From Neisseria sp. MVDL19-042950 (lineage in GTDB: Bacteria; Pseudomonadota; Gammaproteobacteria; Burkholderiales; Neisseriaceae), in assembly GCF_030504625.1 (NCBI RefSeq), contig NZ_JAUKWH010000001.1, positions 124,001 through 188,000 on the forward strand: DNA of 64,000 nt. Direction: 5' to 3'. The position numbers and the translations under genes are program-made. The notes under the pieces are model-generated. The model ran no database searches, was not told the origin of the DNA, and saw only the letters and a list, made by a program, of their open reading frames with translations. Of this stretch, positions 2,347 to 25,389 are shown in pieces (within the stretch, counting starts at the first letter, position 1; every line of letters begins with the position of its first letter).

Positions 2347-3300
2347 GTGAGAGAGCCGGAATTATTCTTAACTAGGGTTTATAAGCCTTTAGATTCATTG
2401 GATTTTAATGGAGAAAAATTAAAGATTGATGAAAAAGAAATCAAATTCCTTCATCATTCTATTTTGAATAACAGTGAGTTTACAAAGGATGCGCGGGGAA
2501 ATTGGAAATTAATATTTTTTAAAGACGATGATTTATACCGGCAAGAATTTTATATTAAATTTAATGAATTAGATAAAGACGAAGATATTGCTTTTTGCCA
2601 AGATGACAGTTCGAGAATATTGAAAAACACGGACTTGAATTTCAAAAAATATGATGAAATCACACGATTATGTTTTGTTTATGATGGCCAAATACAAGGC
2701 GATTCGAGGAAAGATCATCAAATAAATGATGAATTTCTAAAATATATAGAACATTTATCGTTGATTGTCCGTGAATCAAAAGCGGTAAAGTTCGATGATT
2801 TCTATGAAACGAGATCACATTATGGCCATTTTGATGGAAGAGGATTGTCGTTTTTGGCCAAATTACCAAAGCAAAGAGCTTATTTGGAACGCTATATTTT
2901 ACTGGTAGCGCTGGCATACGCTTATTTAGGCGTATTGGAAAAATTCGGTAACGAGTTGGCCAAGTTGGGAAAACCGGAAGATATTTCCCGATTACATTTT
3001 TTATATGAAAAAATTTCTTATTTCTATGTGAAGTTCTTTTTTTGCCAGCCGGTACTCAGTAAAAATTCCGCCTCGGTTGAAGCGTGGAACCGTATCAGCG
3101 GCATTTTAAAAATTAGCGAATTAAAGAGTGAATTGGATCAAAAGGTTTCAATGATCCACTATATTTTAAATCTGCAATCCGAAAAGCAAGAGAGAAAACA
3201 AAAAGAAATAGATAAGAAAAAACAGGATAAAGTAAATATTACATTTGTGATTTTAGGGGTCGCCATCAGTTGCCTTCAATTGATCGGGCTATTCAAATAA
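2347..3300 (+). CDS. AT-rich hypothetical protein with C-terminal membrane anchor
   Basis: 317 residues, family not recognised. The GTG start at 2347 is preceded by a strong Shine-Dalgarno (AGGAGAGG). The first ~100 residues are charged and soluble and the middle is helical. Residues about 255-295 form a very charged, probably coiled-coil stretch (QSEKQERKQKEIDKKK) leading into a single hydrophobic segment (FVILGVAISCLQLIGLF) at the extreme C-terminus, so the protein is likely tail-anchored. Base composition is far more AT-rich than the flanking genes and it contains no DUS, both signs of recent acquisition. It interrupts the biosynthetic operon between the BtrH-like gene and the ABC transporter. 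Confidence 0.75.
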   Translation: MREPELFLTRVYKPLDSLDFNGEKLKIDEKEIKFLHHSILNNSEFTKDARGNWKLIFFKDDDLYRQEFYIKFNELDKDEDIAFCQDDSSRILKNTDLNFKKYDEITRLCFVYDGQIQGDSRKDHQINDEFLKYIEHLSLIVRESKAVKFDDFYETRSHYGHFDGRGLSFLAKLPKQRAYLERYILLVALAYAYLGVLEKFGNELAKLGKPEDISRLHFLYEKISYFYVKFFFCQPVLSKNSASVEAWNRISGILKISELKSELDQKVSMIHYILNLQSEKQERKQKEIDKKKQDKVNITFVILGVAISCLQLIGLFK

Positions 3301-3311
3301 TATAAATTTTT

Positions 3312-4214
3312 ATGATAGAAATAAAAAACCTTTCCCATCAATATCCAAACGCGCAAGTGCCGGCTTTGCGCGGTGTTTCGCTGGAAATCGGCGAGGGTGA
3401 AACTTTGGGTTTGCTGGGGCCGAACGGGGCGGGGAAAACCACGTTGATGTCGCTTCTGGCGGGTTTGCAGCCGGGGCAGTCGGGGCAGATTACTTTCGAC
3501 GGCGTGCCGTTCGCGCGCCTGAGTAAAAAACAGCGGCACCAAATTTCCCTTGTGCCGCAAGATTTTGCCTTTTATCCCTTACTGAGCGTTTGGGACAATC
3601 TCAAATTTTTTGCCGCGCTTTATGACGTGAAAGACAAAGCGCATTTGCAGCAGTTACTTGAAGAAACAGGCTTGGAAGCGCACCGCAACAAGCTGGCGAA
3701 GCATCTTTCAGGCGGCCTCAAACGCCGCTTGAATTTCGCCGTCGGTTTAATCAACCGGCCACGCCTGATTTTTCTGGATGAAATCACCGTCGGCATCGAC
3801 CCCGAATCGCGCCGGTTTATTCTGGAAAGCGTGGCGGAGCTGGGCAGGAGGGGCGTAACCGTTATTTATACGTCGCATTACCTGCAAGAAATTGAATTGT
3901 TGTGTAAAAATCTGGTATTGCTGAATCACGGCCGAATGATTTATCAAGGCGGCGTGCAGGATATTTTGCAGCAAAACGGCCGATCTGGTTTAAGCGTGCA
4001 AACGCAGCCGCCGCTGAGCGATGAGCATGTGGCCGTCTTAAACGGCAAACGGGAAGCGAACGGAGCCGTGCGGATTGAAACGCAAACTGCCGAGCCGGTG
4101 TGGGTGTTTTTGCAGGAAAAAGGTTATGCGGTAACTGCCTGCCAATTCGGTTTTGCATCGTTGGAATCGTTTTATCTCGATTTCTTGCGCAATCAGGCGG
4201 AGGTAACATGCTGA
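3312..4214 (+). CDS. ABC transporter ATP-binding protein
   Basis: 300-residue ATPase of an ABC-2 type exporter. Walker A GPNGAGKTT (about residues 36-44), the ABC signature LSGGLKRR (132-139) and Walker B LIFLDE (152-157) are intact, with the switch His in YTSHYLQE. The C-terminal ~80 residues form the variable domain typical of drug, antibiotic or polysaccharide exporters of this class. It overlaps the permease gene by 7 bases, so the two are co-translated. Placed between the BtrH-like protein and the carrier protein, it most likely powers export of the cluster's product, or of a lipid carrying it, across the inner membrane. Confidence 0.9.
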   Translation: MIEIKNLSHQYPNAQVPALRGVSLEIGEGETLGLLGPNGAGKTTLMSLLAGLQPGQSGQITFDGVPFARLSKKQRHQISLVPQDFAFYPLLSVWDNLKFFAALYDVKDKAHLQQLLEETGLEAHRNKLAKHLSGGLKRRLNFAVGLINRPRLIFLDEITVGIDPESRRFILESVAELGRRGVTVIYTSHYLQEIELLCKNLVLLNHGRMIYQGGVQDILQQNGRSGLSVQTQPPLSDEHVAVLNGKREANGAVRIETQTAEPVWVFLQEKGYAVTACQFGFASLESFYLDFLRNQAEVTC

Positions 4215-22299: not shown

Positions 22300-23628
22300 A
22301 TGCGGAAATTGTTAGTATCTAAAAAAAGATTGAGAAATACTCTTAAGCCAGTAAGAAAACACGATTTAAAAGAAAAATTTAGTATGTGGATTTGGTTAGA
22401 ACATTGGATAAAGATTATTGCAGCAGTTTCTCCAATAGCATTACTTTTAGGAGCTACGCTAATTTATGCTCATCTTTTTACTTTAAATAGTATTGGTTTG
22501 TTTTCAGAGGTAATATCAACTCCTTCTGTATTTTTTTCAATTTTAATATTATTTTCTTTTTTAGTTATTTATATTTTTGGACTCCCTTTTTTCGCTCCCT
22601 ATAATTTAGCTAAACTTGTTAATAAGTATGAGAAAAAAAATATTAAATTTTATTTGATTATATTGATATTTTTAATATTAAAAGATTTTATTGGAATATA
22701 TTTTATAGGATGGGCAGCTGTTAAGAAAAATGAACTAATATTTATATTTTTTCTTACGCTATATTATTTTTTGTTCCCACTTTTTACTTTTTTATTTATA
22801 AAATCAAATAATTATTTTAATTTATTCTTATTTTCTATTGTGATATTTATTTTAGGAAGAGGACTTGTTTTACATTTTGAAGATTATGAGAATATAAGAT
22901 TATTTTGGATATTAGCCATTCCATTAACTTGTATTCTTCTCATGTTTTTCATGAAAAATAAATTTATGAAAAATATAAAAATAAAAGTTTATAGAAGTTG
23001 GGATTTTGTTTTAGATTTTTTTTCTTTTGGAGTAGTATTTGCTTTATCTAATCTTTTGTTGATTTTATTTGTTTTTTTAATAAGCGAAATTTGGTTTGAT
23101 AGTGATAAATCTTCTTTTCTTATTACAGTCATCATATGCTACTTGATTAATATTTTACCTTCATTTGGATTTTTAGGAGTGGGGAAGGGAAATAACCATA
23201 CTATATTATGGTGTTTCCCTATCATGTTTATTATTTTATTAGGTGCATTTATGGTGCTACTCCCAGGTTCTCAAGTTAGAAGTGGCTTGTTAATGTCACT
23301 AGGCTACATTGAAAATTATCAACAAGCTCGTTGGTATTTAATCGATACTCGTTTTGTGGAATGGAATGCCTTGAGAAGCAAAGAAAATATTAAAAATTCA
23401 ATGTCAGTTGATCATATGGAAACGTGGAAAAAAGTTTTTCAACCTTTGCCTCCTCGTATAAATATAAATGGATATAAATATTCTAATGCTTTTTATGGTT
23501 ATATAGCATGGAATTTAGGTAATATTAAAATTTTCTGCCCGCAAACCATTCAAAATAATGAAGATATTAATAAAAAATGCTTATACATTAAAAGTGAATT
23601 TTTACAGCCTTTACCTGACAGTGTGTAA
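22300..23628 (+). CDS. AT-rich polytopic membrane protein of unknown family
   Basis: 442 residues, not recognised. The start ATG follows AAGGGAG. After a basic N-terminus (~45 residues) there are roughly nine to ten hydrophobic segments up to about residue 335. A C-terminal hydrophilic domain of about 105 residues follows, containing two Cys (IFCPQT and KKCLYIK) and ending QPLPDSV. Codon use is extremely AT-rich with long A and T runs, no DUS, and sharply different from both neighbours, indicating acquisition. It is followed by a DUS-pair terminator. No transport or enzymatic motif could be assigned. Confidence 0.75.
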   Translation: MRKLLVSKKRLRNTLKPVRKHDLKEKFSMWIWLEHWIKIIAAVSPIALLLGATLIYAHLFTLNSIGLFSEVISTPSVFFSILILFSFLVIYIFGLPFFAPYNLAKLVNKYEKKNIKFYLIILIFLILKDFIGIYFIGWAAVKKNELIFIFFLTLYYFLFPLFTFLFIKSNNYFNLFLFSIVIFILGRGLVLHFEDYENIRLFWILAIPLTCILLMFFMKNKFMKNIKIKVYRSWDFVLDFFSFGVVFALSNLLLILFVFLISEIWFDSDKSSFLITVIICYLINILPSFGFLGVGKGNNHTILWCFPIMFIILLGAFMVLLPGSQVRSGLLMSLGYIENYQQARWYLIDTRFVEWNALRSKENIKNSMSVDHMETWKKVFQPLPPRININGYKYSNAFYGYIAWNLGNIKIFCPQTIQNNEDINKKCLYIKSEFLQPLPDSV

Positions 23629-23651
23629 TTAATAATATTAAAAATTTTAAA

Positions 23652-23687
23652 AGAGGCCGTCTGAAAATGTTTTCAGACGGCCTCTTT
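23652..23687. terminator. bidirectional DUS-pair terminator
   Basis: AGAGGCCGTCTGAAAA and TTTTCAGACGGCCTCT lie between the AT-rich gene (plus) and the small ORF/BCCT pair (minus). Confidence 0.85.
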
Positions 23688-23703: not shown

Positions 23704-23832
23704 TCAATCATCTTTCTCGAAGAAAGCCAGTTTGATCACATAAAACAGGAACAGCAAAGTCAGCAGCATCATCGAAGTTTCGAGAATATTTTCCTGAATG
23801 CTTTGGTTCCAATAAAGCAACTCTTTTTGCAT
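23704..23832 (-). CDS. 42-residue membrane microprotein downstream of the BCCT gene
   Basis: Too short for the ORF track. Minus-strand ATG at 23832, TGA ending at 23704. The encoded peptide has a polar N-terminus (MQKELLYWNQS), one hydrophobic helix (MMLLTLLFLFYVIKLAFF) and an acidic end (EKDD). The Shine-Dalgarno GGAGGAATAA is excellent and lies inside the last codons of the BCCT gene, whose stop ends 3 bases before this ATG, implying translational coupling. It may be a small accessory subunit or regulator of the transporter; this is inference from position. Confidence 0.7.
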   Translation of the reverse strand: MQKELLYWNQSIQENILETSMMLLTLLFLFYVIKLAFFEKDD

Positions 23833-23835
23833 GGT

Positions 23836-25389
23836 TTATTCCTCCTTCGGTGCGGTTTCTGCGGGGCGGGGTACGTCGCGGTTGAGCTGCCGCCACAGTG
23901 CGGCGAACCACAGATACATAATGAATACAAACGGAAAGCCTGAGAATGAGCCGACGGCTTTAATCCCTTCCATTTTGCCGGTAAAAATCACTGCGTAGCC
24001 GATGAGCGTCATCAATACGCTCCACACCACGGCGCGGAATTTGTTTTCGCGGCGGCCGTCGCTGCTGGTCATGATGCCCAATGAAATGGCGGCGCTGGTT
24101 ACGGTGGTTACGACGAAGCCGAGAAACAGCACCACGGTAAGCGGTTTGGTAAAGCCCGAGAGCGGCAACATATTGAGCAGATAGTAGAACGTGCCTTCAT
24201 AGTCGCCTTTGTTGGCGATTTCGGCCAAACGCCCCGTGCCTTCCACCGTATCCAGCAGGCTGAAGCCTGAGAATACCGAGAACCAAATCACAAGAAAGCC
24301 CACCGGCACGAGTATGGAGGCGAATATAAACTCGCGTAGCGTCCGCCCTTTGGAAATTTTGGCGAGGAACACGCCTACAAACGGTGCCCAAGTAACCCAC
24401 CAAACCCAGTAAGCCATCGGATACCACACCATCCAATCGCGGTTTTGGAAAAGATAAAGTTCGAAAGAATGGTGCACGGTTTGGGTAAGGATGTTACCGA
24501 TGGAGACGACTAGGGTGCTGAGAAAATAATGGGTGGGGCCAGTAATGAAAACAAACAGCAGCATCAATATCGATAGGAAAACGGTGGCATCGCCCAGCAG
24601 TTTCATCCCTTTGTGAATCGGTAAGACAGCGCCTGCGGTATAGAGTGCGGCAATGGCGGTGAGCACGATCAATTTCCAGCCGAGGGTATCGAACCCCATG
24701 CCGGTGATGATTTGCAACCCTGACGAAATTTGCGTAGAAGCCATGGCGATGGAAGACGAAACCGACATGGCGATGGAAATAATCGCAACGGCGGTAACGG
24801 TAATGCCCAGCGGCTTGGCCCATTTTTTATTTTTGAACGCATATTGCAAAGGGGCGGCGGGGGTGCATTCGGTTTTATGCTGGTACATAAAATAAGCCAT
24901 CACCAAGCCGCCGATGGTGTAAAGCGACCATGCCGGAATGCCCCATACGTGCAACGCGAGGCTCATGGCGTTTTCCACTTTCTGATATTCGGGCAGATTG
25001 GCGGCTTGTATGCCGATGGGGGAATGGTAGTAGTGCCATAACGCTTCGATGGGGCCGAAAAATACGATGCCGACACCGATACCGGCGGTAAACAGCATAT
25101 TCATCCACGACATAAACGAATATTCCGGTTGGGCATCTTTGCCGCCCAGCCTTATTTTGCCAAAGCGGGGAGACAGAGCCACCGCCATCCCCACGGTGAA
25201 AGCCAAAAGCGGCAGCCACATCACGATCCAGTCGAATTTCAGGTAGAAAAATTTGCTGATATCGGCAATGGAATTGGTAAGTAGAGCAGGGTTTACGACG
25301 GCCATGACAGCAAGGCAGCCTACCAATATGGAAGTCCACACAAAATAAGCGGGGCGCTTGACGGGCGGGGTTTCTTTTTCGGAAGACAT
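23836..25389 (-). CDS. BCCT-family betaine/choline/carnitine transporter
   Basis: 517-residue, 12-helix secondary transporter. The BCCT signature is present: FGPIEALWHYYHSP in the first part, the Gly/Ser-rich third-helix-type stretch, and the tryptophan-rich core WYPMAYWVWWVTWAPFVGVFLAKISKGRT. Short cytoplasmic termini suggest it lacks the long regulatory tail of osmosensing BetP. The likely substrate is choline, betaine or carnitine; no choline-oxidation genes are adjacent. The coding end overlaps the ribosome site of the microprotein gene. Confidence 0.92.
   Translation of the reverse strand: MSSEKETPPVKRPAYFVWTSILVGCLAVMAVVNPALLTNSIADISKFFYLKFDWIVMWLPLLAFTVGMAVALSPRFGKIRLGGKDAQPEYSFMSWMNMLFTAGIGVGIVFFGPIEALWHYYHSPIGIQAANLPEYQKVENAMSLALHVWGIPAWSLYTIGGLVMAYFMYQHKTECTPAAPLQYAFKNKKWAKPLGITVTAVAIISIAMSVSSSIAMASTQISSGLQIITGMGFDTLGWKLIVLTAIAALYTAGAVLPIHKGMKLLGDATVFLSILMLLFVFITGPTHYFLSTLVVSIGNILTQTVHHSFELYLFQNRDWMVWYPMAYWVWWVTWAPFVGVFLAKISKGRTLREFIFASILVPVGFLVIWFSVFSGFSLLDTVEGTGRLAEIANKGDYEGTFYYLLNMLPLSGFTKPLTVVLFLGFVVTTVTSAAISLGIMTSSDGRRENKFRAVVWSVLMTLIGYAVIFTGKMEGIKAVGSFSGFPFVFIMYLWFAALWRQLNRDVPRPAETAPKEE

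Follow-up and report, generated by a model that had tools for sequence, protein, structure and literature searches.

Does a short open reading frame trailing a BCCT family transporter gene in Neisseria sp. MVDL19-042950 encode a protein, and if so, is that protein a partner of the transporter? The frame lies in a 64,000-nucleotide stretch of the genome (the window), in which a first-pass annotation had read it as a 42-residue membrane microprotein linked to the transporter.

Layout of the transporter and microprotein genes

The frame occupies exactly positions 23704–23832 of the minus strand, stop codon included; the first-pass annotation had given no strand. Its translation, MQKELLYWNQSIQENILETSMMLLTLLFLFYVIKLAFFEKDD followed by the stop codon, contains a single hydrophobic stretch (approximately residues 20–38) and the charged tail EKDD, in agreement with the one hydrophobic helix and charged tail described earlier. 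The ATG (23832–23830) stands in the same frame as the transporter stop codon TAA (23838–23836) after a gap of 3 nt, and a Shine-Dalgarno sequence, AAGGAGG (23847–23841, minus strand), is found 8 nt from the ATG and inside the last codons of the transporter gene, where the annotation had placed one. The two in-frame genes are separated by one stop codon and one further codon (23832–23838), as they are in 11 of the 23 orthologous loci described below, and read-through of that stop would yield a fusion of transporter and microprotein. No natural fusion was seen, every microprotein frame in these loci being short.

About 17 nt downstream of the microprotein stop codon, a terminator scan located a terminator-like hairpin (23650–23687, minus strand but reading on both strands), the 17-bp stem of which consists of inverted GCCGTCTGAA repeats; we take GCCGTCTGAA to be the Neisseria DNA uptake sequence. 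Since this hairpin follows the microprotein and the transporter gene directly precedes it, the two genes form one predicted transcription unit. The hairpin could serve both converging genes. The plus strand carries an AT-rich frame (22300–23628) for a hydrophobic 442-residue product without a Pfam match, which looks recently acquired and is found beside the transporter and microprotein genes in just two of the 23 loci, those of the window genome and of G010.

The transporter gene (23836–25389, minus strand) encodes 517 residues and matches the BCCT model over the full length of the domain (PF02028, E = 7.7e-115, residues 16–504), with a very short C-terminal tail of 12 residues beyond the last conserved core position. 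Its scores fell short of the curated thresholds for every BCCT equivalog in NCBIfam, including the glycine betaine BCCT (323.8 against 650), BetT (259.1 against 695) and CaiT (171.5 against 541), and so assign it to none of these named subtypes. Two other BCCT genes in the same genome, 27–30% identical to it, have no microprotein counterpart.

Conservation in Neisseriaceae and Moraxellaceae

We assessed coding potential across 23 intact orthologous BCCT loci (group A), from 21 Neisseriaceae and 2 Moraxellaceae genomes. Of 83 Neisseriaceae genomes, 21 contained a homologue of the microprotein (E values of 1e-22 to 2e-7), always directly behind the orthologous transporter gene (71–100% identity), with named records from Neisseria wadsworthii, N. 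sicca, N. dentiae, N. iguanae and N. weixii. An intact transporter orthologue was present only in these 21 genomes, and the remaining 62 had neither an intact orthologue nor the microprotein. Among 299 Moraxellaceae genomes the microprotein was found in two, both with the transporter and one of them Psychrobacter lutiphocae, and was absent from the other 297; this rarity, always with the transporter, suggests that the two genes were transferred as a unit. The microprotein was never found away from a BCCT gene in the genomes of either family. A group-A profile gave no convincing match outside the window genome among 369 Gammaproteobacteria genomes, and no group-A microprotein was found in plasmids.

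The microprotein frame was intact in all 23 loci, with an ATG or GTG start, a purine-rich ribosome-binding site and a stop codon. Conservation of the frame beside BCCT genes was the check proposed in the first-pass annotation, which named frameshifts or missing start codons in relatives as grounds for rejection; no relative that retains an intact transporter gene showed either. A broken transporter gene (L147, G044:C1:917000-927000) survives as two fragments, 87% and 74% identical, and lacks both its 3' end and the microprotein. The arrangement of the two genes varied, with overlaps of up to 14 nt and gaps of up to 86 nt, and a ribosome-binding site was kept each time, which indicates that it is the protein and not the distance between the genes that is conserved. 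Pooled pN/pS was 0.31 in frame and 0.92, 1.68, 0.94, 0.52 and 2.14 in the five other frames, while substitutions were concentrated at third codon positions (0.32, 0.14 and 0.50 at positions 1, 2 and 3). These codon statistics mark the microprotein frame as a genuine gene subject to purifying selection. Invariant residues among 20 distinct sequences were Y7, Q10, N15, E18, T19, F28, L29, Y31, V32, K34 and A36, of which Y7, Q10, N15, E18, T19 and K34 are polar; clustering of the conserved residues on one helical face was not significant (permutation p = 0.18).

The transporter–microprotein pair was constant while flanking genes changed between group-A loci, which associates the microprotein with the transporter and not with neighbouring genes. 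The most frequent arrangement, seen in 15 of the 23 loci (within L128–L146), has a choline/carnitine O-acyltransferase gene downstream (Carn_acyltransf, PF00755, E = 4e-103), overlapping the microprotein by 4–20 nt in three of them. The acyltransferase gene is not adjacent in the window or in L127, L131, L136, L138, L140, L148 and L149; in the window genome it lies on another contig (G000:C2:70320-71984). In L137 the gene is broken into two frames. This neighbour hints at carnitine or choline as the transporter substrate.

A second group in other alpha- and gammaproteobacteria

A second group of transporters (group B, 40 loci) is approximately 34% identical to that of the window. Its first members were the nearest short-tailed BCCT genes of other gammaproteobacterial families (L098, L102 and L103) together with one from Roseobacter denitrificans (L191); in all four, a 30–44-codon single-helix frame overlaps the BCCT stop codon. 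Two added family searches contributed 31 further loci. A single-helix frame of 30–48 residues, usually overlapping the stop codon, lay behind the transporter gene in 40 of 40 loci, which are not independent because 30 of them belong to one family. These microproteins share a motif of roughly LxDTLLNLxTFAFIGxxIWLxxRK, all match a group-B profile HMM (E ≤ 1e-14) that had zero matches among other BCCT loci, and have a pN/pS of 0.28. The link to the transporter that the first-pass annotation had drawn thus holds in this group as well as amid the changing flanks of group A.

In three alphaproteobacterial loci (L267, L269 and L270, approximately 2988–3450), a frame of about 139–162 codons stands between the transporter and microprotein genes; its products resemble each other and have a signal-peptide-like start. 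The microprotein persists there, approximately 0.5 kb downstream and with its own upstream purine-rich stretch. Group-B pairs are followed by unrelated genes. Annotation of the microprotein is uneven: it is recorded as a hypothetical protein in R. denitrificans (WP_011655363.1) and unannotated in Roseibium and two Rhodobacterales plasmids, and among four group-B plasmid records it is annotated in one and absent from three, the gene table itself being incomplete. In two group-B genomes (L238, 6703–9927; L239, 6505–9693), the transporter gene follows a large frame resembling an RND efflux pump, with an overlap of 4 nt in L238.

The relationship between the microproteins of the two groups was assessed by comparing their profiles. 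The hhalign alignment was ungapped over 26 columns with E = 0.0012 but a probability of only 19%, and matches across groups with the HMMs began at 0.0045 in tiny databases. Common ancestry of the group-A and group-B microproteins is therefore likely, short of proof.

Microprotein-bearing transporters form one clade with short C-terminal tails

Across both groups, all 63 of 63 loci had a frame of 30–57 residues with one hydrophobic helix on the same strand directly behind the transporter gene, a count that includes the three loci with one intervening frame. In a maximum-likelihood tree of 57 BCCT proteins, all transporters accompanied by a microprotein fell on one side of a single branch (95 bootstrap, 90 SH-aLRT), and the same clade had a FastTree support of 98. 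C-terminal tails beyond the last conserved core position spanned 2–16 residues in the 23 group-A loci and 4–13 in the 40 group-B loci. The median was 156 (range 8–200) in a comparison set of 109 further BCCT loci, which were sampled for their similarity to two query sequences. The microprotein was absent from all 109. Nine of them nevertheless had tails of 20 residues or fewer, so a short tail alone does not require the microprotein. On a Martelella plasmid, one short-tailed BCCT gene without a microprotein (L225, 2358–3219) overlaps a gene for a glycine betaine ABC substrate-binding protein.

Comparison with known small transporter proteins

When 15 group-A and 4 group-B microproteins were compared with the complete Pfam (24,736 models) and NCBIfam (18,950 models) libraries, no significant match emerged, and hence none to AcrZ, MetS, KdpF or other small transporter subunits insofar as the libraries include models for them. 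The group-A profile likewise matched no PDB sequence, and the open-access literature, to which our survey was confined, yielded no report of a small subunit or microprotein for a BCCT transporter. The closest functional parallel to the role proposed below is MetS, a short single-helix subunit that is encoded beside a LeuT-fold transporter and needed for its function in MetPS, the sodium-coupled methionine transporter of Corynebacterium; that transporter belongs to the NSS family, not BCCT, and the microprotein described here has no Pfam or NCBIfam match.

Modulation of transporters by small proteins is already known, with AcrZ, MgtS, MgtR and SgrT as examples (PMC10710835). AcrZ (49 residues) is a single helix that packs against the AcrB efflux pump at its membrane domain and tunes it (PMC10710835), and so resembles the microprotein as a single-helix small protein of a secondary transporter, although its partner is an RND pump rather than a BCCT carrier and the microprotein gene lies within the transcription unit of the transporter itself. 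MgtS, MgtR and MgtU (28–31 residues) bind MgtA, MgtB or PitA and alter their stability or activity (PMC10710835); they too are tiny membrane proteins acting on transporters, but they steer degradation or inhibition, no sequence relation to the microprotein was found, and they are not described as obligate BCCT partners. Within the BCCT family, the long C-terminal domain of BetP regulates its activity (PMC10710835). That domain is covalent and cytoplasmic, whereas the microprotein is a separate membrane helix and the window transporter has no such tail.

Alternative explanations

Four other accounts of the frame were weighed against this evidence. That it is spurious and conserved merely through nearness to a conserved gene would fit a frame so short and unannotated in most records, but the codon evidence refutes this, since pN/pS is low in both groups; the frame has also been retained across an inserted ORF, and the R. 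denitrificans homologue is annotated as a protein, leaving this account with practically no probability. Small type I toxins have a similar length and a single hydrophobic helix, and the microprotein recalls them in both respects, so that it might be a stand-alone toxin-like or stress peptide placed behind the transporter by chance. Such a peptide would be expected neither to occur solely with the transporter, as it does throughout the 83 Neisseriaceae and 299 Moraxellaceae genomes, nor to conserve its six polar residues, and we give this account little weight. A partnership with the gene downstream, for example the acyltransferase that so often follows and at times overlaps the microprotein, is very improbable and largely refuted by synteny: eight group-A loci, including the window, keep the microprotein without an adjoining acyltransferase, and group B has unrelated genes in that position.

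A conditional negative regulator or protease adaptor, in the manner of MgtR or SgrT, is unlikely, yet it deserves more consideration. The microprotein would then inhibit the transporter or present it to FtsH or another protease, and its size and anatomy fit, given that proteins of 28–49 residues act in this way on MgtA/MgtB, PtsG and others (PMC10710835). An inhibitor encoded on the message of its own target in 63 of 63 loci would, by argument, amount to a constant brake, and a constitutive partner agrees better with that pattern. A matched subunit, more than an inhibitor acting conditionally, would also account for the coupled layout, for the obligate inheritance of both genes together and for a single helix whose polar residues are conserved.

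Proposed role

Because the microprotein has been kept with the transporter in every related genome examined, it is most likely a small subunit of that transporter. We put at roughly 0.7 the probability that it is an unrecognised, obligate subunit, acting as stabiliser or regulator, of a BCCT carrier that lacks a C-terminal extension. Transporter and microprotein would be translated from one mRNA, the microprotein by coupled re-initiation, which should match its supply to that of the transporter. In its predicted topology, the microprotein would insert as a single transmembrane helix, bind by packing against the transporter, and stabilise or tune it. AlphaFold2 modelling of the read-through fusion (transporter, TAA and microprotein; 16 rows) drew the microprotein as one helix over its residues 12–37, at a low-confidence overall pLDDT of 48.6 that gave no usable docking. 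As these carriers have no BetP-like tail, a helix acting in trans to stabilise the transporter or set its activity is our best guess, and it would probably supply a role that a C-terminal extension has in most other BCCT transporters. We lean slightly towards extending this to the whole clade as a two-component system of alpha- and gammaproteobacteria, in which a carrier without the extension would be controlled by an obligate single-helix subunit coupled to it at the stop codon. The wider family and its association with short C-terminal tails go beyond what the first-pass annotation saw.

The open-access literature surveyed describes no small-subunit architecture for BCCT transporters, among which BetP and CaiT are textbook single-gene carriers for the study of osmosensing and the LeuT fold. 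Most annotation misses the microprotein gene and, if the proposed role is true, functional and structural studies of this clade that used only the transporter gene would have missed a component. A natural comparison between tail and proposed subunit in the control of BCCT activity is also offered by the clade.
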